Origin: Heloderma charlesbogerti | Lineage: Eukaryota; Chordata; Lepidosauria; Squamata; Helodermatidae | Direction of reading: 5' to 3' | Assembly (NCBI GenBank): GCA_026122225.1 | Contig: JANEZZ010001497.1 | Coordinates: 868,001-932,000 of the forward strand | DNA: 64,000 nt | Part shown: positions 970-61,744 of the stretch, in pieces | Layout of the letters: each line of letters opens with the position of its first letter | Numbering within the stretch: position 1 is the stretch's first letter | Program-made: the position numbers and the translations under genes | Notes under the pieces: generated by a model | The model's database searches: none | Told to the model about the DNA's origin: nothing | What the model saw: the letters and a program-made list of their open reading frames with translations, nothing else

Positions 970-1563
970 TAGGGAGGAAATACGAAAGCAATCACAATGT
1001 AATATTTACAATTACGTTGTGATTGTAAATATTTACGTAGACTACGGCGAAAATAAGGGCAACGCAAATAGCGTTGCCCTTATTTTTGCCGTAGTCTATG
1101 TAAATATTTACGTAGACTACCTGTGCCAAAATAAGGAATGCAAATGGCGGCACCCATGGGCGCTGCCATTTGCATACGCACTTTTTTTTTTCAAAGTCAG
1201 CCATGATAGGCTACGTAAACTTTTACGTAGCCTATCATGGTGTTTTTTTGAAAATCTAGCCGTGATAGGCTACGTAAATCTTTACTTTTTTTTTTTTACT
1301 TCCTCGCTCTTCCCTTTTTTTTTTTTTTTTTACTTCCTCGCTCTTCCTGGCAGAAGAACTTTCATGGCCGGAGAGGCAGGGCGCTCTCCCCCAGCCAGAA
1401 TTTTGGTGGGGAGGGACGGGGTGCCTCTCCCCCGGCCAGAGGTTTGGCGGGGAGGGATGGGGCACCTCCCCCCCATCCAGAATTTCTGGGGGAGGGATGG
1501 AGCGCCTCCCCCCCACCGCGAAGCAAGTGTCGGGATCAGGTAAGTGACTTTCGTCCATCCCTA
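970..1563 (+). mobile_element. hAT-like foldback element, degraded left end, A-type right end
   Basis: The right end is clear: CAGGTAAGTGACTTTCGTCC followed by CATCCCTA at 1563. The left end, TAGGGAGG, is degenerate. The interior has the family palindromes: a GTAGACTAC/GTAGTCTAC pair, an AATAAGG..GCAAATAGCG stem, and ATAGGCTACGTAAA stems near 1205-1240 and 1265-1285. No target-site duplication is readable. A minus-strand CR1 follows directly on the right. Confidence 0.75.
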
Positions 1564-3090
1564 GTTCCTTGAACATATGCCTATGGATCTCAAGCTGCAA
1601 TCCTGCCCCTTCAGCTTGTACTTTGCCTTTGCCAGGGGGGTCATAGACCGTCTTTCAGGAGAAGACTGAGCCAAAGTAGGAATTGTGCACTTCTGCATTT
1701 TCTTTGTCATCTGTTATCATTTTGCCATCCTTATTTAATAGCTGAACCACCATTTCTTTCCTCTGTGTTTTACTATGCATGTATTTGGAGAAAGCCTTTT
1801 TTTTTGTTTTTAGCATCCCTCGCTAACTTCAGCTCATTCTGAGCTTTAGCCATCATGGCGCCATCCCTGCAATTCTGTGCTACCTGTGTGTACTCTTCCT
1901 TTGTAGCTTGGCCTTCCTTCCACTTCCTATATGTGTCCTTTTTTGTTTTCAGGTAATCTCCAAGCTCTTTGTGAAGCCACATTGGCTTCTTCTGTTGCCT
2001 TCCACCTTTTCTTCTTGTTGGAATTGTTTGTAATTGTGCCTTGAGAATTTCCTTTTTTAAAAGCTCCCACCCATCTTGGACTCTTTTTCTGTTTAGAGTC
2101 ACTTGCCATGGGACCTTACTGAACATTGTTCTGAGTTTATTGAAATTGGCTTTCCTAAAATCCAAGGCATGTGTTTGGCTACACTTGGCTTTTGCTTCCT
2201 TTAGAACCAAGAACTCAGGTATAACATGGTCACTTTCCCCCAGAGTTCCTGAAATTGCTACTTTATCCACTAAGTCATCTCCATTGGTTAGAATCAAGTC
2301 AAGGATAGCCCATCCTCTAGTTCCTTCCTCTACTTTCTGTAGGAGGAAGTTATCCATCACACAAGTCAGGAATTTCCTGGAGGGGCCATGTTTTGCAGAA
2401 TTTGTCTCCCAACAAATATCCGGGAAATTGAAGTCCCCCATTACTACAGCATCATGCTTCCTTGAAACATTGGCTATTTGCTTTTCAAAGATTCATCCTT
2501 GTCTTCTCCTTGATTGGGTGGCCAGTAGTAGACTCTGACCACCAGGTTCCTATTATTCTTTGCTCCATGTATTTTAACCCAGATGCTCTCGATGGGGCTA
2601 CCAAGCTCCTCCTCCTGTCTTTCTGTGCAGAGATCTGTATTTTTAACATATAGTACAACCTCACCTCCCTTTCTGTTCCTTCTGTTCTTTTTGAACAAGT
2701 TATATCCTTCCACTGCTGTATTCCAGTCATGAGAGTCATCCCACCAAGTTTCAGTTGCACCTATCAAGTCATAATTTTCCTCCTTTATTAAGAGTTCAAG
2801 TTCGTTCTGTTTGTTTCCCACGCTCTGGGCATTAGTATATCGACATCGAAGACCATGTGCTTCATAGTCTGGCTTTCTTCCTACATGTTTGTGAAGACTA
2901 TGATTGGGTGCTATTAGAGCTGTTCTCTCCATTGCAGTGCCTGAGCCTTCGTCCATTGTTATCTCCAACTTCACATCTCCTTCCCCTGTAGGATTCAATT
3001 TAAACCCACCTGATGAAGTTCTTCATGCTGTCGCCAAACACATTCGTCCCAGCCTTTGTGAGGTGCAACCCTGACAAATAAGTGCTGTCC
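1564..3090 (-). mobile_element. CR1 LINE fragment, endonuclease part of ORF2
   Basis: Two overlapping minus-strand frames read as CR1 ORF2. The first, about 2998 down to 2474, has the N-terminal apurinic endonuclease, with motifs like YTNAQS, ATETWW and VLYVK. The second, about 2441 down to 1773, continues with GDFN and SDH-type endonuclease motifs and then the Lys-rich linker before the reverse transcriptase. A frameshift separates the two. The reverse transcriptase and 3' end are missing, so it is a dead fragment. A paralogous stretch in plus orientation begins near 18215. Confidence 0.85.
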
Positions 3091-3622
3091 ACTAATGATC
3101 CTTATGCAATATGTCAAGTGGCAGAAACTCTTGTCATGTTATTCCTCAAGAAGTCACAGCATGCAAGAGAGAGGAAGTTCACAACTGCTGTGGTGCGCTG
3201 ACACATAAGCACTGTCGATTAATGGTTGTGAAGCAATATGTCAGGCAGCAGAAACCCTTGGCATGTTATTCCTCAAGAAGACACCATGCTTTTCTTGAGG
3301 GTTTTTTCCTGGGCTTTTCCTGCCCTACACAGAGATGCCAGGGCTGGACATTGGGGCCTTCTGCATAGAAACTGTGTGCTCTACCCCTGAGCTATGGCCC
3401 CTAACTAATGGTTCAATGGTTTTTGTGATTTCTAAAACAACAGTCTTAATCTCTATTGTTTCCAAATTTGGTGCTATTACCCATGGGTAAAAGAAAAGAA
3501 TGAACTGAGGGAACACTCCATTCGCTACATATGAGGAGCAGAAAAGGTGTGTGCATGTGGGGGTTTATTTGTAAATTAGTTTATTTGTAACTTAGAGGGA
3601 CCTCCATTGAGCAGACAGCTAC
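3050..3622 (-). repeat. Inverted, broken copy of the defensin promoter block (copy 3, part 1)
   Basis: Read on the minus strand this matches 8395-8775. It carries the AATAGAGATTAAGAC segment, the tRNA-derived SINE, and the CATGTCAAGTGGAAGAAACTC-like segment upstream of the leader exon. That last segment occurs twice here (about 3106-3155 and 3231-3282). The TATA box and leader exon are absent; CR1 takes their place. Together with 4676-5090 it forms an inverted partner of copy 1. Confidence 0.75.
3311..3404 (-). mobile_element. tRNA-derived SINE fragment (CORE/MIR-like)
   Basis: The minus strand has a tRNA-like head (box-A-like TAGCTCAG..GTAGAGCA) and the following conserved body. It is homologous to the copies at 8478 and 45068 within the same duplicated block and lacks the 3' tail. 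Confidence 0.65.
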
Positions 3623-4408
3623 TAGGGAAGGGGGAGAATTTCTCCCCGAAACTTCGGGGCGCCAAGTGCCAACGCATTCGGTCCTCCAAAGGTTGTTCGG
3701 GGAGAAATTCTCCCCCCCCGCCCCCCCCGGGATGGGACTTACCTTTCATGAATGTCCCTCCCGGCGGCGGGTCCCGGCAGGGGTTCGTCAGGTCTTCGTC
3801 AGGGGCGGGGGCGGCAGCCAGTCTTTCGACCGGGTGCCGCCGCCGCCATTACAAGAAAAGTAAAAAAAACAACAACAACGATTAACGTAGCCTATCAAGG
3901 CTAGATTTGCAAAGTCAGCCGTGATAGGCTACGTTAATCGTCACGTAGACTACGGCGAAAATAAGGACAACGCAAATAGCGTTGCCCTTATTTTTGCCGT
4001 AGTCTATGTAAATCCTTACGTAGACTACAGGGACCAAATAAGGAACGCGAATGGCGGCTCCCTATGGGGGCCGCCATTTGCGTACATGCTTTTTTTTGTT
4101 TTTTTAAGTCACCCGTGATAGGCTACGTGACGATTAACGTAGTCTATCATGGCTGACTTTGCAGATCTAGCTGTGATAGGCTACGTTAATCGTCACGTAG
4201 CCTATCACGGGGGCGTTTTTTTTTAAAAAAAAAACTTTGGAGTTCGTGGCCAGGTGAGGCGGGAAGCCTCCTCCCCGGCTTGAATTTCGGCCGGGCGAGG
4301 CAGGAAGCCTCCCCCCCAGGCCTGAACTTCGCGGGGGGAGCAGCGAAGCACCTCCTCCCCACCGTGAACAAGCTTCAATGACAGGTAAGGGACTTTCGTC
4401 CACCCCTA
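3623..4408 (+). mobile_element. hAT-like foldback element, C-left / A-right
   Basis: It begins TAGGGAAGGGGGAGAATTTC (C-type) and ends GTAAGGGACTTTCGTCCA-CCCCTA (A-type). It has internal AGGCTACGTTAATCGT-type stems, a GCAAATAGCG stem with AATAAGG flanks, and a Gly/Pro-coding GC-rich module. The flanking 8-mers do not match, so the site is altered or recombined. Confidence 0.8.
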
Positions 4409-5090: not shown

Positions 5091-5942
5091 TAGGGAAGGC
5101 GGAGAATTTCTCCCTGAATCTTCGGGAGGCCGAGCGCCGATGCATTCGGCCCCCCAAAGTTTGTTGGAAAATTCTCTGCCGGCCCCTCCGCCCCCCCGGG
5201 ACAGGACTTTCCTTCAGTGAATGTCCCTCTGGGCGGCAGGTCCCGGCGGCAGTTCAGCGGCGGTTCGTCGCGGGCGGGGGCGGTGGCCGGTCTCCCGACT
5301 GGCTGCTGCCGCCATTGCAAAAAAAAACCCCTAAAGTAAAAAAAACAACAACACCCATGATAGGCTACATAATGATTTACGTAGCCTATCATGGCTAGAT
5401 TTCCAAAGTCAGCCGTGATAGGCTACGTAAATCATCATGTAGCCTATCACGGGTGACTTTGAAAAAAAAAAAAAGCTATTTGCATTGCCTTTATTTTCGC
5501 CGTAGTCTATGTAAATCTTTACGTAGATTAGACGTGCCAAAATAAGGAACACAAACGGCGGCACCCATGGGCCGCCGCCATTTGCGTACGCGCTTTTTTT
5601 TTTTCAAAGTCACCCGTGATAGGCTACGTGACGATTTACGTAGCCTATCACAGCTGACTTTGGAAATCTAGCCATGATAGGCTATGTAAATCATCACGTG
5701 GACTATCACGGGGTCTTTTTTGTTTTTTTACTTTTTGTTTCACAGCCGGGGAGACGGGGCGCTTCTCCCCGGCCTGAATTTCAGCCGGGCGAGGTGGGAA
5801 GCCTCCCCCCCGGCCTGAATTTTGGCCGGGCGAGGCGGGAAGCCTCCCCCCCCTCGCCTGAACTTTGGGGGGGAAAGCGAAGCGCCTCCCCCCCACCGCG
5901 AAGCCAAGCTGCGAAAAGGTAAGTGACTTTCATACATCCCTA
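5091..5942 (+). mobile_element. hAT-like foldback element, complete, perfect TSD
   Basis: It is flanked by the perfect 8-bp duplication CTTTGAAT (5083-5090 and 5943-5950). The C-type left end (TAGGGAAGGCGGAGAATTTC) is paired with an A-type right end (AAAAGGTAAGTGACTTTCAT-ACATCCCTA). Four ATAGGCTACGTAAATCATC-type stems and one GCAAATGGCGGC-type stem are inside. It lies at the junction of the two inverted promoter-block copies. Confidence 0.93.
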
Positions 5943-6631: not shown

Positions 6632-7470
6632 TAGGGATGGCAGAGAATTCTGCCACGGATCTCGGTGAGGCCGAATGCCAGTGCATTCAGTCCCCCAAAA
6701 TCTGTGGTGGAACGGCCTGCTCCCCCCCCCCCGCGGATCCCTCCCGGGATGAGACTTACCTGGGGTGGATGTTCTGGGCAGTGGCGGCTCCAGCAGCGGC
6801 TTCGACAGCAGCGGTGGCTGGTCTTCCGAACGGCTGCCGCCTCCGCCATTTGCAGTCTTGTTGGGTTTTTTTTTTTTTACAAGACGTGATAGGCTACGTA
6901 AAGATTTACGTAGCCTATCATGGCTGGGTAAAAAAAAAAAGCATACACAAATGGCAGCTACGGCTGCTGCCATTTGTGTTCCTTATTTTTGGCCGTCTTA
7001 GTCTACGTAAATATTTACGTAGACTAAGACGGCAAAAATAAGGGGTATGCAAATTGCCGTTTTAGCCTATGTAAATATTTACGTATTTAAAATGGCGAAT
7101 CAAAAAGGGACGCAAATAGCTATTTGCGTTCCCCTTATTTTCGCCGTCTTAGTCTATGTAAATATTTATGTAGACTAAGGTGGCCAAAAATAAGGAACGC
7201 AAATAGCCGTAGCCGCCGCCATTTGCGTACGCTTTTTTTTTTTTTTACCCAGAGCCCTCCGTGGCCGGAAATCCGGCTGCGGACGGCTCTGGCCTGGGCC
7301 TGGCCAGCTGCTCCGCAGAGCTGCAGTGGAGCACAGCTGGCCGTGGAGGATTCTGGGGGGGGAAGAACAGATTGCCTCCCCCCCCATGGAGGATTCTGGG
7401 GGGGGGACGGAACGCCTCCCTCCCCATCAACATAATCCGCAGAAAGGTAAGTGACGTTCGTACATCCCTA
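6632..7470 (+). mobile_element. hAT-like foldback element, B-left / A-right
   Basis: The B-type left end is TAGGGATGGCAGAGAATTC with a GGCCGAATGCCAGTGCATTC palindrome. The A-type right end is AAAGGTAAGTGACGTTCG-TACATCCCTA. The interior has GTCTTAGTCTACGTAAATATT stems and TTTTAGCCTACGTAAA stems. The flanks do not form a duplication: second-family sequence starts immediately at 7471. Confidence 0.85.
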
Positions 7471-7913
7471 AGTCCTATGGCTGCTAGTCAGAGGCTAGAT
7501 GGCCGTAGGATATGTCAGTTTCCGGGAACTGACCTCAGAGCCCACTCTCTGAGGTCAGTTCCCTGAGAACTGACTTTCCCCCCTCCTGCGCTGCCTCACA
7601 GGCAGCTCAGAATGGCTCATGCGCCACGCTTGAAAGAGGAGCTCAGAGCGGTGAAAACAGGGCATTCTTGGTGGCGTTCCGGGTCGGGGAAGGTGGAAAT
7701 GCTGGTAGGACACATCCTATGTGTTGTCCGGCAGCAGCTTCCTCTGCTCTGTTTCCCACAGCTAGACAGCTGAAATCGACTGTCTAGCTGCAAATGCAGG
7801 GGAGGCTGAAACACAGAGGGGACAATACCCTCTGTGCTTCTCCTGCCCTGCATTGGATAGGCGGCCACCTCTGAGTTCGGAGGTGGCCGCCATCCCAATA
7901 GGATTGCGCCCTA
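7471..7913 (+). mobile_element. Second repeat family, long copy
   Basis: It starts CTATGGCTGCTAGTCAGAGG and ends ATAGGATTGCGCCCTA. It contains the inverted pair GGAACTGACCTCAGAG / CTCTGAGGTCAGTTCC (about 7518-7563) and GCTAGACAGC..GCTGTCTAGC. Homologues are at 4409 and 54046. The TIR-like ends suggest a DNA transposon; superfamily not determined. Confidence 0.7.
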
Positions 7914-8477
7914 AGAAGTTTTAATGCATTCTCAAGAATTGATGGGAGCAGAAAATGGTCAGCTTGTGGAACTCTGAATCATAGAGGCAGAGAGTTCCTT
8001 AGGCCCTGAAATCTAAGCATTTGCTAAAAATAAGAAACCATGTAGGTGGGATTGCCCAGTGAAGGACATGTTTCCCCATAGGTGCTGGCAGCGGTGGGAG
8101 ACAAACCCCCATACAGGGTCACGCAGCTTTGGGCAGCTATGTGGAACAAACGCCACCCTGGCAAGGTGGGCAGCAGCAAGGTTGGTGGCAGCAGCAGGAA
8201 GAGCAGGAAGGCAAACAAGCAGAGGGAGATGGCATAGGAGTCTGGCAGAGGCAGGAGGCAGTGAGAGCTATGTACATTTATGGGCAGCTGTCTGCTCAAT
8301 GCAGGTCCCTCCAAGTTGCAAATAATGCCCCCTCCTTTTCTACTCCTCCTACGTAGTGAATTGACTATTCAGCTCAGTTCATTTATATGTTTTACCCATA
8401 GACAATAGCACAAAATTGGACACAATAGAGATTAAGATAGTTGCTTTAAAAAACACAAAAACTGTTGAACCTATGGT

Positions 8478-9940: not shown

Positions 9941-10271
9941 TACGGATGTATGGATGTAACTTACCTTTTCGAAGGGTGACATTCGCAGTGGGGGGGGAGG
10001 CACTCCATCCCTCCCCCCAAAATTCTCTCCGGCTGGCTCTGTGGAGATTCTGTGGAGCTGCCGGCCAGGGCCGCCTGCAGCAGGACATCCAGCCGCTGGG
10101 CAGCCTGCACAGGGACGCAAATGGCAGCTGCTGTAGCCGCCGCCATTTGCGTCCCTGTATTTTGCTGTGATAGGCTACATAAATACTTACGTAGACTATT
10201 ACGGCTTCCGCAGGGACGCAAATGGCATTCGGCCTCACCGAGATCTGTGGCGGAATTCTCTGACATCCCTA
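9941..10271 (+). mobile_element. Short hAT-like foldback element, A-left / B-right
   Basis: At 331 bp this is the shortest complete copy in the window. The left end is TACGGATGTATGGATGTAAC and the right end GATCTGTGGCGGAATTCTC-TGACATCCCTA. The flanking duplication is GCGAGAAG / GTGAGAAG (7 of 8). It holds one GCAAATGGCAGC stem and one ATAGGCTACATAAATAC-type stem. Confidence 0.88.
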
Positions 10272-11301: not shown

Positions 11302-12205
11302 TAGGGATGTATGAAAGTTCCGCCATGAATCTCGGGGAGGCCGAATGCCAGTGCATTCGGCCCCCCAAAATCGGTGGCGGAATGGCCTGCCACCCCCCTG
11401 CCACCACCCTGGGACCGGACTTACCTGGGGTGGATCTTCCTGGCAGCGGTGGTGGCGGTTCGGCGGCGGCGGCAGGGGCGGCCTGTCTTCTGACCAGCTG
11501 CCGCCACTGCCATTTCCAAGTTTAAAAAAAAAAATGTGATAGGAAAAATGTGATACATAAAGATTTACGTAGCCTATCACAGCTACATTTTTTTAAAAAA
11601 ACACCGTGATAGGCTACGTAAATGTTTACGTAGCCTATCACGGCTGACTAAAACAAAAACAAAAAAAACGCGCGTACGCAAATGGCGGCGCCCATGGGTG
11701 CTGCCATTTGCATTCCTTATTTTGGCCTGTCTTAGTCTATGTAAACATTTACGTAGACTAAGACAGCAAAAATAAGGGGAACGCAAATAGCATACACACT
11801 ACGCTATTTGCGTTCCCCTTATTTTCTCCGTCTTGGTCTACGTAAATGTTTACGTAGACTAAGTTGTGCCAAAATAAATAACACAAATGGCGGCGCCCAT
11901 GGGCGCCACCGTTTGCATATGCACATTTTTTGTTTTTTTTAATCAGCTGTGATAGGCTACGTAAACACTTATGTAGCCTATCGCCGCCATTTGTGTCCCT
12001 GCTAGCCAGCGGCTGGATGTCCAGCCGGTGGCGGAGCCGGCCGGTGGCTCCGCAGAATCGCTGTGGAGCACAGCCGGCCGGCCAGGGTTCCGGGGCGGGA
12101 GGAACGGAGTGCCTCCCCCCTGGCGAGGATTCTGGGGAGAGGGACGGCCTCCCCCCGCACCATCAGCATAATCCCCGAAAGGTAAGTGATTTTCGTACAT
12201 CCCTA
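11302..12205 (+). mobile_element. hAT-like foldback element, complete, perfect TSD
   Basis: The perfect 8-bp duplication is CCAGTAAT (11294-11301 and 12206-12213). The left end is a hybrid: A-type terminal TAGGGATGTATGAAAG continues into B-type CCGCCATGAATCTCGGGG. The right end is A-type, GAAAGGTAAGTGATTTTCGT. Internal stems include two ATAGGCTACGTAAATGTTT hairpins and GTCTTAGTCTACGTAAATGT stems with AATAAGGGGAACGCAAATAG flanks. Confidence 0.93.
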
Positions 12206-12727: not shown

Positions 12728-13640
12728 CATTTATTTATTTATTTGAAACATTTGTATGCTGCCCTATATCATTAAGATCTCAGGGTGGCATACAGTTAAA
12801 ATGTATGCTGCCCTATATCATTAAGATCTCAGGGTGGCATACAGTTAAAATCAATTTAAACAGTACAAAACAATAAATAATTTAAACAGCTAAAAGCATA
12901 TTGAACCATTAAAAAAGCTAATAACAATTAGAAAATCTAAAACAATGGAACAGGTAAAACAGTCTGCAATTCAGTTACCCTCAAAGGCTTTGGTAAAAAG
13001 CCATGTTTTAACTTGGCACTGAGATCAAACCAATGTCTGCGCCAATCGGGCCTCCAAGGGTAGGGCATTCCACAACTGGGGTGCCACAGAAGAGAAGGCC
13101 CTTTCCCACGTCTCACCATAGTGTATGTCTGACACTGGTGGATGCAGAGGAGGCCCCCTTCAGCAGATCTCAGTCCTCCGGCAGGCAGAGATAGGGAGAG
13201 CGCTCCCTCAAAGACTGAGGTCCCAAGACACTTAGTGCTTTAGATGTTATCACCAACATCTTGAATTCTGACCAGAAATGTATTGACAGCCAGTGCAATT
13301 CTTTTAAAACTGGTGCTGTATGATCATGTATGATCTTTCCATGATGCTCCAGTCAACAGTCTAGCTGTTGCATTTTTCACTAGCTGAAAACACTCATGGT
13401 GTTTCAAGAAAGGAGTTAGCAGGAGAACATACAGGCTGCAGTAGTTGGCTGGGGTGCACAGGAGATCTGTCCGTATGTATGTATGTATGTATGTATGTAT
13501 TTCTATACCACACAATAGCCAAAGTTTTCTGGGCGGTTCACAAAAAGTAAAACCACGGAGTGCAGCATAAAACACTATAAAATATGAAAGCTTAAAACCA
13601 CAATATAACAGCATGACCAAAAGAAAACCTAGCAGCAATT
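12728..13640 (-). mobile_element. L2-like LINE 3'-region remnants with microsatellite
   Basis: The sequence resembles L2-like 3' regions seen elsewhere in the window, such as the ATACCNCNCAATAGCCNAAG and TTCTGGGCGGTTCAC segments. A unit of about 50 bp (ATGCTGCCCTATATCATTAA..) is tandemly duplicated at 12751-12850. A (GTAT)n run spans about 13472-13502. Minus-strand residual coding resembles the L2 C-terminus near 13350. Confidence 0.55.
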
Positions 13641-13652: not shown

Positions 13653-14723
13653 TAGGGATGTCAGAGAATTTTGTCACGAATCTCGGGGAGGCCGAATGCG
13701 CTGGCATTCGGCCTCCCGAAATCGGTGGCGAAACAGTCTGCCCTCCTGCCCCCCCCCTGGGATGGGACTTACCTTGGGCGAATCTCACTGGCGGCGGCGG
13801 CTCTGGCGGCGGCTCTGGCGGCGGCTCGGCAGCAGTTCGGTGGCGGCAGCTGCGGCAGCCGGTCTTCTGACTGGCTGCCACCACTGCCATTTCCAAGTGT
13901 TTTTTTTTTAAAACGTGATAGGCTACGTAAATCTTTACGTAGCCTATCACGGCTAGATTTTTAAAAAATACCATGATAGACTACGTAAATGTTTACGTAG
14001 CCTATCATGGCTGAGTTAAAAACAAAACAAAACACGCGCATACGCAAATGGCAGCGCCCATGGGACTTACCTTGGGTGAATCTCCCTGGCAGCGGCGGCT
14101 CTGGCGGCGGTTCGGCGGCGGGTCAGTGGCGGCGGCGGCGGTGGCTGGTCTTCTGACTGGCTGCCACTGCCGCCATTTCCAAGTGTTGTTTAAAAAAAAA
14201 AAAACGTGATAGGCTACGTAAAGATTTATGTAGCCTGTCATGGCTAGATTTTTAAAAAATACCGTGATAGGCTACGTAAATGTTTACGTAGCCTATCACG
14301 GCTGAGTTAAAAACAAAACAAAACACGTGCATACGCAAATGGTGGCGCCCATGGGCGCCGCCATTTGCGTTCCTTATTTTGGCACGTCTAGTCTAGGTAA
14401 ACATTTACGTAGACTACGGCGAAAATAAGGGGAATGCAAATAGCGTAGCCCATGGGTGCCGCCATTTGCATATGTGCGGTTTTTTTTTTTTAACTCAGCC
14501 ATGATAGGCTAAGTAAACATTTACGTAGCCTATCATGGCTGACTGCAGGGATGCAAACGGCGGCGTCTACAGCCACCGCCATTTGCAGACCCGGCTGGCC
14601 AGGATTCATGGCGGGAGGGACGGGGCGCCTCCCCCGGCCAGAATTTTGGGGGGAGGGATGGAGTGCCTCCCCTCCACCCCGAATCAAATTTCGTTCAAGG
14701 TTAGTGACTTTCGTACATCCCTA
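13653..14723 (+). mobile_element. hAT-like foldback element, complete, perfect TSD
   Basis: The perfect duplication is GATTTAAA (13645-13652 and 14724-14731). B-left / A-right, 1,071 bp. It contains an internal near-repeat of the GC-rich CTTACC..CGGCGGC module followed by ATAGGCTACGTAAA stems (13765-13990 and 14060-14300), i.e. a partly duplicated interior. At about 14480-14498 a T-tract precedes AACTCAG|CC, a strong-looking splice acceptor. Confidence 0.93.
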
Positions 14724-14838: not shown

Positions 14839-15485
14839 TAGGGATGTCAGAGAATTCTGCCACAGATCTTGGTGAGGCCGAATGCCAGTCCATTTGGCCC
14901 CCCAGAATCCATGGTGGAATGAAGCCCCCCTCCCCCCACCCCGTGAAAGGCGCATGCAACAGGACGCTTACCTGGTGCCATTCGCGCTGCTATGAGAATG
15001 GCGGCTGCATCTGCGGCCACCATAAGCTTCCCTATTTTTGCCATGATAGGCTACGTAAATACTTAAGTAGCCTATCACAGCTAATGCATGGCAAAAAAAG
15101 GGAACGCAAATGGCGGCCGCTGTAGCCGCTGCCATTTGCGTTCCCTTTTTTTGCTGTGATAGGCTATGTAAATATTTACGTAGCCTATCACGGCAAAAAA
15201 ACCAGGAACGCAAATGGCAGCCACTATGCCGTTTGTGCCCGTGGTGGTTTTTTTGCCGTGATAGGCTACGTCAATATTTACGTAGCCTATCACAGCCAAA
15301 AAACAGGAACGTATTGGCGGCCGCTGTAGGCACGCAATTTGCGTCCGCAGGCTCTACACGGTGCCTGCGAATGCACCTGGCCGGTGGCTCTGTGGAGTTG
15401 CCACGGAGTGGAGCTGGCCAAGTTAGGATTTCGGGGGGAGGTGCGGAGTGCCTCTTCCCCACTGCGAATCACCCTGTCGAAAAGG
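14839..15485 (+). mobile_element. hAT-like foldback element, B-left, right end interrupted
   Basis: It starts TAGGGATGTCAGAGAATTC and has four ATAGGCTACGTAAATAC/ATATT stems alternating with GCAAATGGC stems. It runs to the GAAAAGG that normally precedes TAAGTGAC at the A end. There a new element start (TAGGGATG at 15486) replaces the rest. Confidence 0.8.
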
Positions 15486-22670: not shown

Positions 22671-23008
22671 GTAACATTCTTCCATACTTGTTATTAGGGA
22701 TGTATGAAAGTCACTTACCTTTTTGATGAGGCGATTCGCAGTGGGGGGGAGGTGCTCGGCACCTCCCCCCAAAATCCTTCTCCCGCCAGCTCCGCTCTGA
22801 GGAGATTCCACGGAGCCACCAGCCAGAGCTGCCCAAAGCCGGAAATCTGGCCGCTGGGGAACTTCCTTCCAGAAGGAAAACAAAACAAAACATGGCAAAT
22901 GCAAATGGTGGTGTCTCCAGCAGCTGCCATTTGCGTTCTCTATTTTTCGCCGATTTATCTTACGTAAATATTTACGTAGGCTAGAACGGCAAAAAAAAAA
23001 AGGAACGC

Positions 23009-46510: not shown

Positions 46511-46903
46511 ATAGGCCATACATCAACTTTTAAAACATTCGGACATATTCCCGTCTTGGATTTTATGATGTGTTTGATTATTTTATGTTTCCTTGGGAGG
46601 GCTCCTATCCTGAAAAGCCGCCAAGAAATATTTTAAAGCAATAAAATAAATGATAGAACTATAGAATGAAAATGCAGAGAAAGGGTGATTGGTCATTCTG
46701 AATGGGGACGAGTGACTTGTTTTCTATGGGAAGGACCACCATACTGGGGCAAGCATAAAATGAGCTTTTCTTAAAACAAACAAACCCCAAAACAAAAAAC
46801 CTACCTGAGAAAACCTCCTTCTATGCTTGTGCAAATATATATAAAAAAGAGCAGTATCCTTCAAAGATTATTGGATGCTATCATCTTCACTTTGGGGCTG
46901 AAT

Positions 46904-47582
46904 TAGGGATGCTGTAGAAATCTGTCACAGACTCAAATGAGGCCAGATTCCAAAGAATCTGACCTCCAGAGTCCATGGCAGACCAACTGCACTTATCTCC
47001 GGGTCCAGAGGAGCTCCTGTGGGGCGGATCTCTAGCTTCCTAAAAAAATGCTACGCTTACTGATTGATTGATTGATTGATTTGATTTATTAGCCACCCAT
47101 CTGGCCAGCTGCCTGGCCACTCTAGGCAGCATACAATACTAGTAATAAATTTACATAATCAACTGAACCAAACAACATAACAAAACAACACTACTCTAAA
47201 AAAACCCTAACCCACCCAAAATGCCCTCCTGAGCAGCCAGGTTTTTAAAGCCTGGTGGAAGCTCATCAAAGATGCCATTAGCTTATTGCAGGAGAGATAC
47301 AGCTGTAAAGGTCATACTGGATGCCAGCTGCAATTTAGGTAAAAGTAAGTGCTTTATGGCCGCAAATGGCATAAAATATGCCATTTACGGCTGTAATTTT
47401 CCCGCAATAGACTAATGGCAGCCTCCATTAGTGTATCACATTTTTTAGAAAGCTGGAGAGCTGCTCCACCAACTCCAGTGGATGCAGCAGGGCTCTGGAG
47501 GATTCTGTGGGTCCTCAAGCAGCCTGAATTGTCCCGCAGCAGAACCCCCTGGACTGGACAGTGGGGGGGTTGTACATCTCTA
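46904..47582 (+). mobile_element. Diverged D-type foldback element carrying an L2-like tail
   Basis: The duplication is GGCTGAAT / GGCTGGAT (7 of 8). It starts TAGGGATGCTGTAGAAATC, followed by CCAGATTCCAAAGAATCTG, and ends GTTGTACATCTCTA. An L2-like 3' segment with (ATTG)n (about 47060-47330) is inserted. The remaining interior has CGCAAATGGCATAAAATATG..CCATTTACGGC. Confidence 0.75.
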
Positions 47583-47650
47583 GGCTGGATTAATACCTCT
47601 TACAAGATTCTGAGTGGTCCTGTTAATCCAATGGTGGGCAACCTGTATGG

Positions 47651-48078
47651 TAGGGCAGATGCCCTACCTGCCGGTCCATCAGCAATCCGTTACTCCACCA
47701 GGAATCCTCAGCTGGCTCCGCTCTGTGGCAATTCTGCGGAGCTCCCGGCCATCTCCGAAGCGCCAGCGATATGGCTGCCATGCCATATTGCTGGCTGAAG
47801 GGGACTGACTGCGGACACAAATGGCTGCATTTGCGGCCGCATTACCTCAAACTAAGACCTTTACAGCCGCAAAGGGTGTCCTGGGCGCCATTTGCATCCG
47901 CAGTCAGTCCCCTTCAGCCAGCGATACTGCATGGCAGCCATATCGCTGGCAATCCGGCCAAAGGGGATTCTGTGGGGAGGCAGAGGTAAGTGTTCCATTC
48001 TGTCATGGACTCCGGGGGGCTGGATTCTTTAGAATCTGGCCTCATTGGAGTCTGTGGCGGAATTCCACCTGTGCCCCA
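47651..48078 (+). mobile_element. Diverged D-type foldback element with 64-bp hairpin arms
   Basis: Arms 47762-47825 and 47887-47950 are near-perfect reverse complements (GCCAGCGATATGGCTGCCAT.. and ..ACTGACTGCGGA..). The right module has GGATTCTTTAGAATCTGGCC and TGTGGCGGAATTCCACC. CAGAGGTAAGTGTTCC is the outward donor motif. The termini are degenerate (TAGGGCAG / GCCCCA). Confidence 0.65.
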
Positions 48079-48433: not shown

Positions 48434-49145
48434 TAGGGATGTCAGAGAATTTGGCCACGAATCTCGGGGAGGCTGAATGCCAGTGCATTCGGTCGCCCGA
48501 AATTGGTGGCGAAATGGTCTGCCATCCCCCGCCCCTGCCCCAGGACGGGACTTACCTTGGGCGAATCCTCCTGGCGGCAGCGGCAGCTCCGGCGGCAGTT
48601 CAGAGGCGGTGCGGTGGCGGCGGCTCCGGCAGCCGGTCTTCTGACCGGCTGCTGCCGCTGCCATTTCCAGTAAAAAACCAAAAAAACATGATAGGCTACG
48701 TAAAGATTTACGTAGCCTATCATGGCTAGATTTTTAAAAATACCGTGATAGGCTACGTAAATGTTTACGTAGCCTATCACAGCTGAGTAAAAAAAGAAAA
48801 AAAAACGTACGTACATACCATTTGCGTACATACCATTTGCGTACGCGCGGGTTTTTTGTTTTTTTGTTTTTACTCAGCTGTGATAGGCTACGTAAACATT
48901 TATGTAACCTATTGCAGCTGACTGCAGGGACTCAAACGGCAGCGGCTACGGCCGCCACCATTTGCGGCCCAGCCGGCCAGGATTCGGGGGTGGAGGGACG
49001 GAGCACCTCCCCCCAGGCCAGAATTTCGGGGGTGGAGGGACGGAGCACCTCCCACCCGGCCAGAATTTTGGGGGGAGGGACGGAGCGCCTCCCCCCCACC
49101 GCGAATCAAATTTTGTTCAAAGTAAGTGACTTTCGTACATCCCTA
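48434..49145 (+). mobile_element. hAT-like foldback element, complete, perfect TSD
   Basis: The perfect duplication is CTCCCAGT (48426-48433 and 49146-49153). B-left / A-right (AAAGTAAGTGACTTTCGTAC-ATCCCTA). A T-tract followed by TTTTTACTCAG|CTGTGATAGG near 48850-48880 looks like a splice acceptor. Confidence 0.93.
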
Positions 49146-49623: not shown

Positions 49624-49763
49624 ATGTCACGGGAGACCCAGGAGATCCAGTCAGCTCTAAGCAGTGTTATTCAATGGGTGGTGCTTGCCGATATCTGGGG
49701 TGTGTAAAGGGAACACATATTGCACGATGTCAAATGTACAATTTCCAGTGTTGTAGAAGGTAA
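49624..49763 (+). CDS. Beta-defensin cysteine exon, locus B
   Basis: A strong acceptor (CTTTGCTTGTGCAG|AT) gives phase 1, matching the leader at 45493. The exon encodes a short propiece (DVTGDPGDPVSSKQ) and six cysteines spaced C-x6-C-x4-C-x8-C-x6-CC, ending QCCRR. This is the classic beta-defensin framework with a net basic charge, consistent with a secreted antimicrobial peptide. TAA at 49761-49763 ends the frame and overlaps a perfect donor (AAG|GTAAGT, from 49760). The message can therefore stop here (two-exon gene) or splice on in phase 2 to 52693. The two-exon reading is simplest. Confidence 0.9.
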
Positions 49764-50779: not shown

Positions 50780-51653
50780 TAGGGATGTACAAAAGTCACT
50801 TACCTTTTCGCAGGGGTGCTTCGCGGTGGGGAGGAGGCGCTTCGCTTCTCCCCCCAAAGTTCAGGCGAGGGGGGGAGGCATCCCGCCTCGCCCGGCTGAA
50901 ATTCAGGCCAAGGGGGGAGGCGCCCCACCTCTCCTGGATGAAATTCAGGCCGGGGAGAAGCTCCCCATCTCCCTGGCCGCAAAAGAAAAAGTGAAAAAAA
51001 TTCACGGCTAGATTTCCAAAGTCAGCCGTAATAGGCTATGTTAATCATCACATAGCCTATCACGGGTGACTTTGGGGGGAAAAAAAGTGCGTACGCAAAT
51101 GGCAGCGGCCCATGGGCGCCGCCATTTGTGTTCCTTATTTTGGCGCGTCTAGTCTACATAAAGATTTACGTAGACTACAGCGAAAATAAGGGCAATGCAA
51201 ATAGCCTTACCCTTATTTTCGCCGTAGTCTACGTAAATCTTTACGTAGACTACCCATGCCCAAATAAGGAACGCAATTGGCGGCGCCCATGGGTTGTTCT
51301 TTTTTTTCAAAGTCAGCCGTGATAGGCTATGTAAAGATTTACACAGCCTATCATGGCTGATTTTGAAAATCTAGCCGTGATAGGCTATGTAAATCTTTAC
51401 GTAGCTGCCTATCACGTTTTTTTTTTTTTTACTTTACTTGGAAATGGCAGCGGTGGCAGCCTGTTGGAAGACCGGCCGCCGCCGCAATGCCGCCCAACCA
51501 CCGCCGGGACCCACCGCGGCAAGGGACAGTCGCACGAGGTAAGTCCCATCATGGGGGGGCGGGGGCGGAGAATTTCCCCACCAATTTCGGGGGGCCGAAT
51601 GCGTTGGCATTCGGCGTCCCAGAGATTCATGGAGAAATTTTCCGACATCCCTA
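50780..51653 (+). mobile_element. hAT-like foldback element, mismatched flanks
   Basis: A-left (TAGGGATGTACAAAAGTCAC) / B-right (GGAGAAATTTTCCGACAT-CCCTA). The left flank is L1 (TGAGAAAG) and the right flank is L2 (CATTGCAG), with no duplication. This suggests recombination between two separate elements that removed the sequence between them. Confidence 0.85.
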
Positions 51654-52692: not shown

Positions 52693-52798
52693 GAGGTCCA
52701 AAAAGATGGCAATATACGGAGAACAACAGTGTGGCCCTAAATCGAATTCCTTTTATAGGTGCAATGTCTTTGAAGAAAGCACAAGCCTATACAAATAG
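52693..52798 (+). CDS. Possible third exon of defensin locus B, stop codon supplied by transposon
   Basis: From a T-tract acceptor ending AAG| at 52692, phase 2 (matching the donor at 49760) gives a basic, cysteine-containing tail (RSKKMAIYGEQQCG.. then YRC..). The frame ends at TAG 52796-52798, which is the first three bases of the foldback element TIR. Without the insertion the frame would run a few codons further to a TAA. The exon is supported only by phase and acceptor. The upstream TAA at 49761 allows a simpler gene. Confidence 0.35.
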
Positions 52799-53369
52799 GG
52801 ATGTATGAACTCACCCCCATCTAGGTTCTCCAGACTCCTGCCCAGTCCCTGCCCCCACTTGCCAGTTCCCAGACTACACTCAAGCCCCTCCCACTCTTGG
52901 TGAGCAGCCCGCACTCACCCCAGTAGTCTCATTGAGCTCCGCAGTCACCATTTCTAAAAAAAAAAAAAAAAGGCAATCGGAAAAATGTGTTTTTGTATGC
53001 CCAGAAATGCACATTTTTGTGAATGCTCACATGTGGAATGCACATTTTTGTGAAGGCACACATTAGTGTGTGTACGCAAATATGCATTTTTCATAAAATA
53101 CACATTTTTGTGCATGTGCAAATATGCACATTCACAAAATGAACATTTTTGCATGTGTGCAAATTTGTGCATTTTTGCAATTGCCATTTTATTTCCTAGA
53201 AAATAGTAACTGTGGAACTCAACAAGGCTGCCAGGGTGAGTGCAGGGCGCTTGTTGAGGGTGGGCAGGGGGTGAGCAGGGGCAGGGGCTTGGTGAGCGGG
53301 GCTGGGGGGTGCAGACAAGAGCAGGTCCACCGGATTCCTGGACTGAATCGGGCACCTGTGCCATCCCTA
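52796..53369 (+). mobile_element. Diverged TAGGGATG element with CACATTTTTGTG repeats
   Basis: It starts TAGGGATGTATGAACTCACC and ends GTGCCATCCCTA. The flanks TATACAAA / AATACAAA share ATACAAA. The interior differs from the rest of the family: ACATTTTTGTGNATG units repeat over 53000-53170, and the GC-rich arms (CCTGCCCAGTCCCTGCCCCC / GGGGGTGCAGACAAG) are complementary in style. Confidence 0.75.
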
Positions 53370-54045
53370 ATACAAAAACTGCATGTAACATAACCAAAAT
53401 ATGAAGTGGTAGTTGTAATTCAAATACATAATAATTACTATTAAAGTACATTTTGAAAGGTTTTGTGAGGATTGTTTCTGGAGTATGCCTTACTTAAAAA
53501 AGAATAAGATGTTGTACCACTATGCCATTTCTGAGTAGTTTCAAAAGGAGATGAGAAATCAAGATGTGGGCACATATGTTCTTGTTCCGAAATTTCTCAG
53601 CTCTCTCCAAAATAGTTATATGTTTCCTGAACAGCTGGAGTGTGATGCTTAACAAAGAAAGGAAATTAAACTCAGTGAACAGTGAGCTCTCTTTAACAAT
53701 GAACTATTATGTTTTCTAACATTCCCACCTATAGTCTGGGAGTGCTATATTTCTTTCATTTCCTTGGTCAGCAACTCTGAACAATATTGTTTTTAGGCTT
53801 ACTTAACCCTGACCTATTTTCAGTTCTATTCACTTATAAAAATATTTCCTTTCATCTTCCCCTGTATACATCATAAACAGGAAATACCAGCAATGTGATC
53901 TTTGCTACTAACTTGCCAGCATTGTTTCAAGCTTCTTACCTGAACTATATCTTATTCTCCATCTCCCTATCCCCCCACCCATCCTCAGTTTAGGTGAAAA
54001 ACATCTGGCCTTATTTTCCACTTGTAACTTAGATTAACAATGGTA
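53370..54045. other. Unclassified AT-rich sequence
   Basis: No exon or repeat family is recognised. Confidence 0.45.
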
Positions 54046-54486
54046 GTCAGAGGGGGCAACCTATGGTTGCTAGAGAGCGGCTAGATGGCGATAGGATATC
54101 CTGTTTTCTGGGAACTGACCTTGGATCCCATGCTCCAAGGTTGGTTCCCAGAGAACCGACCTCCGCCCACTTCCGCACTGCCTTGGAGGCAGCATGGAAC
54201 AGCCCCGTCCTCCGTGCTCACAAGAGGAGCACAGAGCGGCCAAAAAGGGGTGTGTCTGGGGGCATTCCAGGGTGGGGAGGGCGGAAATGATGTGTCCTAC
54301 AGCAGCCTCCTTCCCCACTCAGCCCTACCATGGCTAGACAGCTGCAATCGGCTGTCTACCTGAAAATGCAGAGCAGGAGGAGCACGGAGGGAATGATCCC
54401 ATCCATGCTTCTCCTGCCCTGCTTTTTGGATAGGCAGTTGCCTCTGAGTTTGGAGGTGGCCACCTATCTGGATAGGATTGAGCCCT
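54046..54486 (+). mobile_element. Second repeat family, long copy
   Basis: It begins GGGGCAACCTATGGTTGCTA and ends GATAGGATTGAGCCCTA. It holds the GGGAACTGACCTTGG / CCAAGGTTGGTTCCC inverted pair (about 54112-54151) and GCTAGACAGC..GCTGTCTACC. It matches 7471-7913 along its length. Confidence 0.7.
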
Positions 54487-54756
54487 AAGAGTTCAAATGT
54501 GGAAAATACAGCATCTCAGGAGGGAATGGATTTGCTAGAATCAAATGATTCAAGCTTAATATAACAGTGTATCAAATAATGTATATATGAGAGACATGGG
54601 CACCAGTTTTCTCTAGTCATGATGAGATTCAGTTTGTTTGGCAGCCTATTATGCAGGCTGGCACAAGAGCCTAGCAAGGTTCAGAAAGGCGCAAGATGCC
54701 AGAATAAAGTGCAGATGGAAAAGGGCAAAGACCTTTGGGGCCAAAATGCATCTAAT

Positions 54757-54899
54757 ACAGGGGTAAGCAACCTGCTGCCCTCCAGTTCTTCTGGACTACA
54801 CCTCCCAGAATTCCTGACCATTGACCATGATGGCTGAGGATGATGGGAGTTCTAGTCCAAAACATCTGGATGACACAAGGTTGGGAAAGGCTGATCTAA
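54757..54899. repeat. Foldback repeat with ACTACAnCTCCCA arms
   Basis: CTGGACTACACCTCCCAGAA (54791-54810) pairs with GGGAGTTCTAGTCCA (about 54845-54859). CAGGGGTAAGC and AAGGCTGATC form possible ends. It is probably an old widespread MITE. The left arm closely resembles the ZNF143/SBS motif ACTACAANTCCCAGAATGC. Confidence 0.6.
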
Positions 54900-55314: not shown

Positions 55315-55831
55315 TAGGGGTGCACGAAAGCCACTTACCTGGTCTCGCAGCTTGCTTCGCAGTGGGGGGGAGGCGCTTCGCTGCTCCCCCCGAAGTTCAG
55401 GCCGGGGAGGAGGCTTCCCTCCTCGCCCGGCTGAAATTCAGGCCGGGGGGGAGGCTTCCCGCCTCGCCCGGCCGAAATTCAGGCCGGGGAGGAGGCGCCT
55501 CGCCTCGCCCGGCCACGAAATAAAAAGATAAAAAAACAAAACAAAACGCCCCCGTGATAGGCTACGTGACGATTAACGTAGCCTACCACGGCTAGATCTG
55601 TAAAGTCAGCCGTGATAGGCTACGTTAATCATCACGTAGCCTATCACAGGTGACTTTAAAAAAACAAACAAACCGCGTACACAAATGGCGGCCCCCATAG
55701 GTAAGTGTCTTGTTTTGCGTGACTTTCGCAGGGTGGGGGGGGTGGCTTCGTTCCGCCATGGATTTTGGGGGGTCAAATACACTGACATTTGGCCTCACTG
55801 AGATCCGTCGCAGAATTCTCTGACATCCCTA
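55315..55831 (+). mobile_element. hAT-like foldback element, A-left / B-right
   Basis: It starts TAGGGGTGCACGAAAGCCAC and ends CGCAGAATTCTCTGACAT-CCCTA. Only two ATAGGCTACG stems; the interior jumps from a GGCGGCCCCCATAG arm to AGGTAAGTGTC. The flanks ACGGGTAG / AGTATTTA do not match. Confidence 0.85.
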
Positions 55832-56090: not shown

Positions 56091-56972
56091 TAGGGATGTA
56101 CGAAAGTCACTTACATTTCCGTGGATTATATTCATGGGGGGGGAGGCGATCCGGTCCTCCCTCCCAGAATCCTCGACGGCCAGCTGTGCTCCGCGGTGGC
56201 TCCGCGGAGCAGCTGGCCAGGCCCAGGCCAGAGCCGTCTGCAGCCGGATTTCTGGCTGCGAAGGGCTCTGGGTAAAAACACAAACAAACAAAAACGCGTA
56301 CACAAATGGCAGTGGCTATGGCCGCCGCCATTTGCGTTCCTTATTTTTCGCCGTCTTAGTCTACGTAAATATTTATGTAGACTATTACAGGGAAAATAAA
56401 GGGGAACACAAATAGCGTAGCGGGCACTATTTGCGTCCCTTTTTGATTCGCCGTTTTAGCCTACGTAAAATGGCAAATCAAAAAGGGACACAAATAGCGC
56501 CCACTATGCTATTTGCTTTCCTCTTTATTTTTGCCATAATAGTCTACATAAATATTTACGTAGTCTAAGATGGTGAAAAATAAGGAATGCAAATGGCAGT
56601 GGCTGTAGCTGCTGCCATTTGCGTACGTGTTTTTTTTTATTAACCCAGCCATGATAGGCTATGTCAGTCTTTATGTAGCCTATCCCATCTCTGTAAAAAA
56701 ACCCAAAAAACCCCAAAATGACAAGACTGTAAATGGCGGCGGTGGCAGCCGGTCAGAAGACCAGCTGCCGCAGCCACCGCCACAGCCGCCGCAGCCGCAT
56801 CAACAGCCAGACCCGCCACCACCCAGAACATCCGCCCCAGGTAAGTCTTGTCCTGGGGGGGATCCACGGGGGGGGGCAGGGGGGCAGGCCATTCCGCCAC
56901 AGATTTCGGGGGGCCGAATGCACTGGCATTCGGCCTCACTGAGATCTGTGGCGGAATTCTCTGACATCCCTA
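56091..56972 (+). mobile_element. hAT-like foldback element, complete, perfect TSD
   Basis: The perfect duplication is ATATAATC (56083-56090 and 56973-56980). A-left / B-right, 882 bp. Internal order: CTGGCTGCGAAGGGCTCTGG arm, GCAAATGGC stem, GTCTTAGTCTACGTAAATAT stem, AAATAGCG stem, TTTTAGCCTACGTAAA stem, then the GCCGCCGC module with CCAGGTAAGTCTTGTCC. Confidence 0.94.
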
Positions 56973-57049: not shown

Positions 57050-57792
57050 TAGGGATGTCAGAGAATTCCATGACAGATCTCGATGAGGCCGAATGCCAGT
57101 GCATTCGGCCCCCCCCAAACATTAGTGGAACAAAGCCCCTGCCCCCCCAACCCATGAAAGGCATGCAGGAGGAAGTGCCTGCCGCCCCCGCCCCCACCCC
57201 ATGAAAGGTGTGCAAAACGGAGCACTTACCTGCTCCCGTCCGCACTGCTTTGCGAATGGCAGCCGTCCTGCAGCCGCCATTTGCTTCTTCCTCTTCAGCC
57301 GTGATAGGCTACATAAATACTTTTTATTTGCTATTTGCATCCCTGTTCTTTCCATGATAGATACTCTTTCCATGATAGATTCCATGATAAATACTTACGT
57401 AGCCTATCATGGCAAGGGGAAGAAAACCCCAGCGTATGCAAATGGCGGTGACTACTGCCATTTACGTATGCTGGGGTTTTCCCCCTGCCGTGATAGGCTA
57501 CGTAAATATTTACATAGCCTACCATGGCTCACAATAGGGATGCAAATAGTGGCGGCTACCACATTTGTCATTTGCGTCCCTGCAGGGCTGCCCCGAAGCT
57601 GGATGTCCGGCTGCGGGCGGCCGGAGCCGGCTGGTGGCTCCGCAGCTTGGCCGCGGAGCCGGCTGGGCAGGATTCCGGGGGGAGGCATGGAGGGCCTCCC
57701 CCCCGGCAAGGATTCCGGGGGGAGGGAAGGAGCACCTCCCCCCACCTGCAGAGTGCGGCGGAGCCAAGTAAGCGGGGTTTCGTACACCCCTA
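57050..57792 (+). mobile_element. hAT-like foldback element, complete, perfect TSD
   Basis: The perfect duplication is GTCAGATG (57042-57049 and 57793-57800). B-left / A-right (CCAAGTAAGCGGGGTTTCGT-ACACCCCTA). It contains a small duplication of TTCCATGATAGAT units within one stem (57350-57390). Confidence 0.94.
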
Positions 57793-59803: not shown

Positions 59804-60309
59804 TAGGGATGGCGAAGAAATCCACCATAGACTCCAATGAGGCTGGATTCTTTAGAATCTGACCCCTGGAGTCCATGGCAGAATGGACTACCCCCTGCCA
59901 CTCCCTGAAATCCCCCCAGGACGGACCCTACCTGGTGGCGGCTGGTCCAGGTCTGTTGTCTTCGTTTCACATCCATCCGCTGTTGGGCTGCAGAACAAAA
60001 TGGTGTCTGGTGGAGGGGATGCCATTTGTGTCCGCTACACCATTTGCATCCCTGCTCTTTGCTGTGATGGGCTATGTAAATATTTATGTAGGCAATCACA
60101 GCAAAGGGCAGGGACACAAATGGCATCCCTTACACTGGACACAGCCTGGCAGCAGACGGATGTCTGGCTGCGGGTGGCCACAGCCAGTGGCTCCGCGGAC
60201 TTGCCATGGAATGGAACCGGCCAGGGAGGATTCCGGGGGGAGGAATGGATCACCTCCCAGCCCCAGTGGACCCCGGAGCGGAACGGTAAGAGGGGTTCAT
60301 ACACCCCTA
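59804..60309 (+). mobile_element. hAT-like foldback element, perfect TSD, in L1
   Basis: The perfect duplication is ATTGTTTC (59796-59803 and 60310-60317). D-left (TAGGGATGGCGAAGAAATCC) / A-type right (ACGGTAAGAGGGGTTCATAC-ACCCCTA). 506 bp with one ATGGGCTATGTAAATATTT stem and one CAAATGGCAT stem. Confidence 0.95.
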
Positions 60310-60912
60310 ATTGTTTCGTTCTTCCACGTTTGTGCATACAATAACCTTGCAGCCATTGTCATGTAGAGAAAGAGGGTTCCCCCCTTCTATTTTACATGTT
60401 TATCTGTTAGTCCTAATAAAAAAGTTTCTGGCTTTAATTCTATAGTAGCTTTTAATATATTTGAGTTAAAGAATGTATTTATTTCCAAAATGTTTTAGCT
60501 TTTTTACAAGTCCATCATAAATGATAAAACATTCCCTCTTGATCTTCACATTTCCAACTTTTTCCCGAAACACCTTTATACATTTTAGACAATTAATTTA
60601 AATGCTGACATAGACCATCTATACATCATCTTATAAACATTCTCTTTAAGACTTATACATGAAGTAAAATTTAACTCTTTTCCCCACATACTTTCCCAGT
60701 CCTCCACTGTTATATTACGACCAACATTTTGTACCCATTTTGTCATACAATCTTTTCCTTGTTCATCCTCAGTCTCATACGTTAACAGTAATTTATACAG
60801 TTTAGCAATAACACATTCATTATTTGTACACAGTGCTGTTTCAAACTCAGATTCTGTTTGTTCAAATCCACCATTTTTCTCATATATTTTAAACCTTTCT
60901 TTAAGTTGCAAA

Positions 60913-61744
60913 TAGGGATGTACGAAAGTCACTTACCTTTCCGTGGATTATGTTCATGGTGTGGGGGGAGGCGTTCCGTCCCTCCCCCCAGAATCCTCGA
61001 CGGCTGGCTGTGCTCCATGATGGCTCCGCGGAGCAGCCAGCCAGGCCCAGCCCAGGCCAGAGCCATCTGCAGCCAGATTACCAGCCGTGGAGGGCTCTGG
61101 GTTAAAAAACACACAAAAAAACACGTATGCAAATGGCGGCGGCTACTGCCGCCGCCATTTGAGTTCCTTATTTTTGGCTGTCTTAGTGTATGTAAATATT
61201 TACGTAGACTATGATGGCGAAAATAAAGGGGAACGCAAATAGCATAGCAGGGGCTATTTGCGTCCCTTTTTGATTCACCCTTTTAGCCTACGTAGTATTT
61301 ACGTAGGCTAAAATGGAGAATCAAAAAGGGTCGCAAATAGCGCCTGCTATGCTATTTGCATTCTCCTTTATTTTCGCCATCATAGTCTACATAAATATTT
61401 ACGTAGACTAAGATGGCCAAAAATAAGGAATACAAATGGCAGCGGCCGTAGCCGCCGCCATTTGCGTACGCAGGTTTTTTTTTAACCCAGCAGTGATAGG
61501 CTACGCAAATCTTTATGTAGCCTATCACGACACTGTAAAAAAAAACAAACCCCTGACAAGACTGTAAATGGCAGCGGCGGCAGCTGGTCGGAAGACCAGC
61601 CGCTGCCGCTGCTGCCGCCGAAGCCACCACAACCCAGAACATCCACCCCAGGTACGTCTCGTCCCAGGATGGATCTACGGGGGGGCAGGGGGGGCAGGCA
61701 TTCGGCCTCACCGAGATCTGTGGTGGAATTCTCTGACATCCCTA
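60913..61744 (+). mobile_element. hAT-like foldback element in L1, near-perfect TSD
   Basis: The duplication is GTTGCAAA / CTTGCAAA (7 of 8). A-left / B-right, 832 bp, closely related to the copy at 56091. L1 coding and UTR continue on both sides. Confidence 0.93.

Follow-up and report, generated by a model that had tools for sequence, protein, structure and literature searches.

The window analyzed here, a 64,000-nucleotide stretch of Heloderma charlesbogerti contig JANEZZ010001497.1 (positions 868,001 to 932,000), was found to carry a dense swarm of short, hairpin-rich mobile elements. We consider it probable (roughly 0.86) that these elements are non-autonomous DNA transposons of the hAT superfamily with Ac-like tips, about 0.3 to 1.1 kb in length, mobilized in trans through cut-and-paste by a transposase whose gene lies elsewhere. 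By this reading, the transposase would bind the element tips and a subterminal octamer, the internal palindromes would arise and stay alike as a folded strand switches template (most likely in the course of replication or of gap repair after excision), and several diverged source lineages would have been active together and recently. The swarm is real, dense and structurally odd, and the original prediction made from the DNA letters was right in kind.

The tip octamer TAGGGATG was detected as an exact match at 25 sites and CATCCCTA at 24 sites across the window. By BLAST with 19 elements as queries, family sequence was found to cover 21,641 bp (34% of the window), and 29 element intervals set by hand totaled 25,011 bp with foreign inserts included; about ten of the copies are broken. 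These values bear out the common tips and the third of the window that had been predicted, and the predicted figures of about 30 copies and about 23 kb were fair. The copies are short, lack coding capacity and number about 30, as expected of miniature inverted-repeat transposable elements (MITEs) and of non-autonomous elements generally. For the comparisons below, 24 two-ended units were tabulated, consisting of a set of 23 elements (331 to 1071 bp) plus the compound at 22695-24766; two stretches with both ends, 18682-19095 and the interrupted 34695-36676, were kept out of the 23-element set. Exact octamers that are not family ends were found at 57535, which is internal to an element, and at 9708, 26184 and 52796/53362, which do not fit the family. 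The 574-bp stretch at 52796-53369 is bounded by TAGGGATG/CATCCCTA and has an ATACAAA repeat at offset positions in its flanks, but its contents differ; it is possibly a second non-autonomous family on the same engine.

The ends of the elements are asymmetric, with one "A" end and one "B" end on each element and nested palindromes in between. The A end begins TAGGGATGTCAGAGAATTC, forms a terminal hairpin and falls into three classes (A1, A2 and A3), while the B end, read outward, finishes with AAGGTAAGTGACTTTCGTACATCCCTA. Both types of end have the tip TAGGGATG in common; beyond this tip and the subterminal octamer mostly nothing further is common to the two, and long terminal inverted repeats (TIRs) were not encountered. 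All 18 end pairs with a 7/8 or 8/8 duplication consisted of one A end and one B or B-like end. On two copies, at 11302 and the copy ending at 29614, the first bases of the A end are of B type, as if the tip had been copied from the other end.

Target site duplications (TSDs) were sought by combining 70 candidate starts with 67 candidate ends (each with at most one mismatch to the octamer), together with ends defined by a hidden Markov model, at a spacing of 150 to 6000 bp. Among the resulting 420 pairs, 12 perfect 8/8 duplications and 6 duplications at 7/8 were detected, compared to chance expectations (by arithmetic) of 0.006 and about 0.15, respectively. All 12 perfect duplications that had been predicted were found at element ends, of which GTGTGTGT (28898-29614) counts for little, as it sits in a (GT)n tract. 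The element at 45561-46511 has a 7/8 duplication given one base of slip. When the 19 duplications were read in the A-to-B orientation, T was present at position 2 in 11 and A at position 7 in 11; this nTnnnnAn preference (pooled p=5e-5) is a lean and not a rule, with T2 and A7 together in 4/19 and nnnTAnnn in 2/19. The nTnnnnAn pattern is the target type of Ac, hobo and Hermes. A paralogous stretch at about 26300-26600 aligns through the insertion point of the 22695-24766 compound without the element and thus provides an independent empty site. The insertions at 28219, 30506 and 48426 have targets similar to CTCCCAGT/CTCCCACT, with flanks of no obvious similarity by eye.

The TSDs and the element bodies differ in how far they have diverged. 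Among the 18 recognized duplications mismatches were found at 6 of 144 positions, or about 2% per copy, a value biased low since worse pairs go unrecognized. By contrast, ten chosen close pairs of elements were 83-93% identical over aligned sites and differed at 2.9-16.6% of sites outside CpG. Since the duplications are nearly intact at this level of element identity, most of the differences probably predate the insertions, and it is probable that several diverged source lineages were active at about one time. The presence of mosaics agrees with co-active lineages: among 11 elements painted against two classes, 55315-55831 was found to combine a class 1 A end with a class 2 body, and mixing was also seen in 50780 and 38652. 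The two A3-class copies measured had CpG observed/expected ratios of 0.20 and 0.37 and are older, as judged by CpG loss; the A3-class copy at 59804 has kept a perfect duplication despite this loss.

Within the elements the order of modules, read from the A end, is a terminal hairpin of about 90 bp, a GC-rich stretch with the octamer ACTTACCT at positions 110-175 (17 of 23 elements), and then hairpins with the core TACGTAAA-NN-TTTACGTA as well as hairpins with CAAATGGC or CAAATAGC arms. The internal hairpins are separated by A/T-rich linkers and nested inside a larger palindrome; on the B side a second GC-rich stretch, often containing tandem units of about 41 bp, is followed by the B end with AGGTAAGT at position -26 (13/23). 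The hairpin core was found at 100 sites with at most 3 mismatches, 98 of which are within element intervals, and the remaining two, at 882 and 1022, adjoin the broken copy at 1024. A 16-base arm was detected at 136 sites with at most 2 mismatches, compared to 0.02 expected. In support of the nested palindromes originally described, the 23 elements folded with z scores of -4.4 to -31 (DNA parameters, 12 shuffles per element), and five of seven control stretches were at -1.5 to +0.2; the controls at 7500-8350 and 54000-54850, outside the elements, also folded better than their shuffles (z of -7.5 and -9.1). A symmetric palindrome of 125 to 478 bp was present in 17 of 23 elements at the settings of the palindrome scan. 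Outside the octamer, the A-side interior mostly showed no homology to the B end, with z above 4 in 5/23 elements (3623, 25292, 28898, 30514 and 32367).

How palindromic MITEs gain and keep their symmetry has, to our knowledge, mostly been argued from structure alone, and we know of no arm-copying test for them. The roughly 30 related copies in this one stretch add a statistical sign of arm copying. About 136 bp on each side of the palindrome centre was aligned for ten elements (20 arms), and doubletons, defined as variants common to exactly two arms, were scored in columns where 6 or more sequences were present and 4 or more had the majority base. By this approach, 37 doubletons were identified: 16 common to the two arms of one element, 12 to arms on the same side in two elements, and 9 to arms on different sides. 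Own arms accounted for 16 of the 25 doubletons between first and second arms, compared to 2.5 expected when the element labels of the second arms were permuted, and only 1 of 100,000 permutations reached 16 own pairs. With CpG columns excluded, own-arm doubletons were 7/16 compared to 1.3 expected. The variants stem from eight elements. The own pair was also the best-scoring pair of first and second arms in 7 of 16 elements, compared to about 1.6 by chance (reckoned by hand); the A3-class element at 46904 was dropped from this comparison, as it had an arm without a match in another element. These private substitutions common to both arms suggest copying between the two arms of a palindrome, and selection for pairing could produce part of the signal.

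A bolder scenario, which we put forward as tentative and hold to be possible at best, is that the palindrome is rewritten in the life cycle of the element. A strand would fold back during excision repair or replication, one arm would template the other, and lineages would thereby acquire newly matched palindromes of their own, with novel hairpin types emerging from old ones; the family would thus possess a self-copying module that diversifies it while it is mobile, each copy bringing outward splice donors into host genes. A whole-genome set of copies could time and map arm copying, and the result is still useful should the family already be in Dfam.

Several observations weigh against the hAT reading with template-switched palindromes as set out above. 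No duplication was found for 5 of the 24 two-ended units (3623, 6632, 38652, 50780 and 55315), and the flanks of the two set-aside stretches matched at 5/8 (18682-19095) and 2/8 (34695-36676). Of the 17 elements that have a symmetric palindrome, 10 entered the doubleton test. The arm-identity comparison made before the other arm tests, by a design biased against own arms, pointed the other way: own arms outscored the best match from any other element in only 3 of 25 cases. In a further comparison, with mean identities of 0.85 for own and 0.78 for cross arms, own arms came out ahead of the best cross arm in 5 of 10. In the arm tree, own arms were sisters in two elements only (43425 and 32367). 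Since the own arm is often not the best match, copying was incomplete or took place long ago, or new palindromes formed in several lineages. Finally, neither a transposase nor an autonomous copy was encountered, and the superfamily call therefore depends on the tips, the duplications and the target lean.

Of the alternatives, the one that survives best, although we regard it as unlikely, is that the hairpins are held by selection on a folded RNA (an element transcript) and not by arm copying. The terminal A hairpin, whose compensatory changes also count in favour of the hAT reading above, supports it with strong covariation. In an alignment of 26 of the 30 A ends (10271, 61744, 18682 and 36049 were left out), the 17 pairs of this hairpin showed standard pairing in 93.9% of cells, and changes on both sides were detected in 12 of 17 pairs, with 61 such cells compared to 21.4 (standard deviation 5.8) after shuffling. 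The covariation score was 0.449 and dropped to 0.06-0.16 once the partner was slid by 1 to 3 columns, a control biased towards the structure, as it was predicted from the same alignment; related rows likewise inflate the counts. The number of further pair types (23) was not above that of the shuffles (21.3). A scan for covariation in the small hairpins gave large counts but mixed hairpin subtypes, and was not used as support. Mismatches of G-U type exceeded those of A-C type by 59 to 39 in 79 internal hairpins and by 35 to 14 cells in the A hairpin, as selection on RNA would have it. However, the internal excess was not significant (p=0.054), the A-hairpin excess was reduced to 9 to 7 when distinct types were counted, and no Rfam match was obtained at the gathering score.

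A somewhat less likely alternative is that the elements would be mobile promoter-exons with bodies resembling CpG islands and putative splice donors facing outward at both ends. The conserved inverted octamer ACTTACCT/AGGTAAGT, which we take to match the 5' splice-site consensus, was found on the A side in 17 and on the B side in 13 of the 23 elements, usually once per side. Its placement is strict: all 13 copies of AGGTAAGT are at -26 from the B end, all 18 copies of ACTTACCT face the A end with 17 of them at positions 110-175, and the octamers thus point outward on both sides. Furthermore, 1,457 of the 1,805 CpG dinucleotides of the window fall within element intervals (observed/expected ratio of 0.82 inside vs 0.20 outside), and simple CpG-island thresholds were passed by 20/23 elements. 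Yet the octamer may be the subterminal site of the transposase, and the high CpG content follows from youth, the two measured A3-class copies having lost theirs. The octamer alone, mostly not its surroundings, is common to the A and B sides; it may serve the transposase as a subterminal site, act as a splice donor or do both, and we favour the transposase site as more likely. If the donors were used, their outward orientation and the CpG richness of the elements would offer a testable link to new exons beside the defensin-like genes of this region.

Assignment to hAT, and the non-autonomous state of the copies, had both been claimed originally and found support. The 8-bp duplications, the short TIR of hAT type and the Ac-type target lean are those of this superfamily, and the tip TAGGGATG agrees in all 8 bp with the start of the Ac/Ds TIR given in PMC3260210; the match stops there, Ac going on AAA. 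No hAT transposase domain was detected by Pfam in 25 distinct translated stretches (28 translations, of which two were repeats and one lay within another), with most of the 119 frames of at least 75 amino acids that lie mostly outside the elements unscanned; the stretches yielded domains of LINE (long interspersed nuclear element) type, namely reverse transcriptase and endonuclease, as well as two matches below threshold to families that are unrelated. For the frame opened by the ATG of the TIR, a protein search with one A-end frame returned no relative at E<=1e-3 among 103 candidates. This frame stops at variable places across 30 A ends. Its minor-allele counts at codon positions 1, 2 and 3 (19, 10 and 23 in 13 copies) are small, and are in the order expected of coding, yet the frame lengths vary, and we think it noncoding. 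No match to the family was found among plasmids (blastn with one element), a collection not known to hold squamate DNA, and a 24-base palindrome pattern had none in viral or prokaryote genome contigs, neither known to hold squamate DNA; these negatives, and that of the protein search, carry little weight. It is doubtful that the copies belong to another superfamily with duplications of about 8 bp (P, Merlin or MULE-like): several superfamilies produce duplications of 8 to 9 bp and no transposase is known for the family, but the Ac tips and the target lean argue for hAT. That a few insertions were multiplied within the gene cluster by tandem or segmental duplication to give this density is scarcely credible, as the 19 target sequences are all different (which refutes it for copies with differing duplications), element pairs differ at 7-17% of aligned sites (ten pairs compared) and the paralogue alignment crosses the 22695-24766 insertion point without the element, even though three six-cysteine exons, two of them within alignable stretches, attest to local duplication.

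Palindromic vertebrate MITEs such as zebrafish Angel are short, non-autonomous and hairpin-folding like this family, and hairpin-based amplification has been proposed for them; they are simpler and are not known to carry a nested hairpin set. No title on this family was present among the literature matches listed. The closest likeness is to maize Ac/Ds, with ends C/TAGGGATGAAA and TTTCATCCCTA and 8-bp duplications, and above all to the short Ds classes with filler DNA: as described in PMC3260210, the first 8 bp of the TIR and the duplication length agree, non-autonomous Ds classes have little but their ends in common, and the Ds subterminal motif AAACGG is bound by the transposase. Unlike Ac/Ds, the present family resides in an animal genome, as judged by its LINEs and reading frames, its A and B ends differ, ACTTACCT stands in place of AAACGG and the interior is a nested palindrome. 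Foldback/Galileo of Drosophila likewise has internally repetitive, structurally variable copies, but Galileo is placed in the P superfamily, with long, internally repetitive TIRs (PMC3573991 and PMC4168063), whereas the present family has a TIR of about 8 bp and an internal palindrome. Elements of hAT type are abundant in some lizards; in a skink genome they are reported as prominent and occur together with BovB and CR1, as appears to be so here, and the portion of PMC12134992 available describes no family of this architecture.

The complete copies with perfect TSDs are located on the plus strand at 5091-5942 (CTTTGAAT), 11302-12205 (CCAGTAAT, B-type tip on the A end), 13653-14723 (GATTTAAA), 25292-26022 (ATTCAACC), 28227-28859 (TCTCCCAG), 48434-49145 (CTCCCAGT), 57050-57792 (GTCAGATG) and 59804-60309 (ATTGTTTC, A3 class), and on the minus strand at 28898-29614 (GTGTGTGT, also with a B-type tip on the A end), 32367-33269 (GTTCTGAA, with a long palindrome), 42496-43155 (TATTAAGC) and 56091-56972 (ATATAATC). 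Duplications at 7/8 flank the short 331-bp copy at 9941-10271 (-), the complete copies at 30514-31261 (+), 43425-44276 (-, palindrome at element positions 260-663) and 60913-61744 (-), and the A3-class copy at 46904-47582 within 46904-48068 (+), which has the CpG ratio of 0.20 and is followed by an A3 remnant at 48023-48068; the slipped 7/8 copy at 45561-46511 is complete and on the plus strand. Two-ended copies that lack a duplication are at 3623-4408 (+, A2 class), 6632-7470 (+, A1), 38652-39274 (+), 50780-51653 (-) and 55315-55831 (-, the mosaic with an A1 end and an A2-type body). The set-aside A3-class copy at 18682-19095 is on the plus strand.

Among broken and composite copies, that at 1024-1563 (+) is 5'-broken with its B end at 1563 and the two stray hairpin cores just outside. 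The copy at 14839-15485 (+) is cut 3' at AAAAGG and joined to a B-end fragment at 15486-15946 (-), a head-to-head fusion of two copies at AAAAGGTAGGGATG (15478-15490) that appears as if the B end had been swapped for the tip of another copy. An A1 tip fragment and an older, broken A3-class copy occupy 17745-18209 (-). The compound at 22695-24766 (-, outer TSD 7/8) consists of A1- and A2-class copies abutting at about 23995/24000 and also holds a broken copy ending at 23818 and a BovB-type fragment. The composite at 34097-36676 comprises a broken minus-strand copy from 34097, the plus-strand copy 34695-36676 interrupted at about 35075-36084, and an A3 fragment ending at 36049.

The elements had been placed next to an immune gene cluster, which is best regarded as a candidate. 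Three exons encoding six cysteines with beta-defensin spacing were found on the plus strand (22571-22660, 26386-26475 and 49665-49754), but translations covering all three gave no Pfam match at E<=0.1, and for the two exons tested the Protein Data Bank matches were weak (beta-defensin 1 at E 2.3 for one; a defensin at E 0.12 for the other, which also matched an unrelated enzyme at 5.2). The compound at 22695-24766 begins 35 bp past the last cysteines of the 22571-22660 exon, and is missing from the paralogous stretch near 26386; it either alters the end of the exon reading frame or sits just inside an intron. A LINE with long reverse-transcriptase frames (RVT_1 by Pfam), split in two frames, lies at 40007-42289 (+) and is presumably BovB/RTE, and LINE-type fragments with endonuclease and RVT_1 domains at 1773-3022 (-) and 19354-20254 (+) are, we assume, perhaps CR1. 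A perfect two-copy 49-bp tandem repeat was also observed at 12753-12851, outside the elements.

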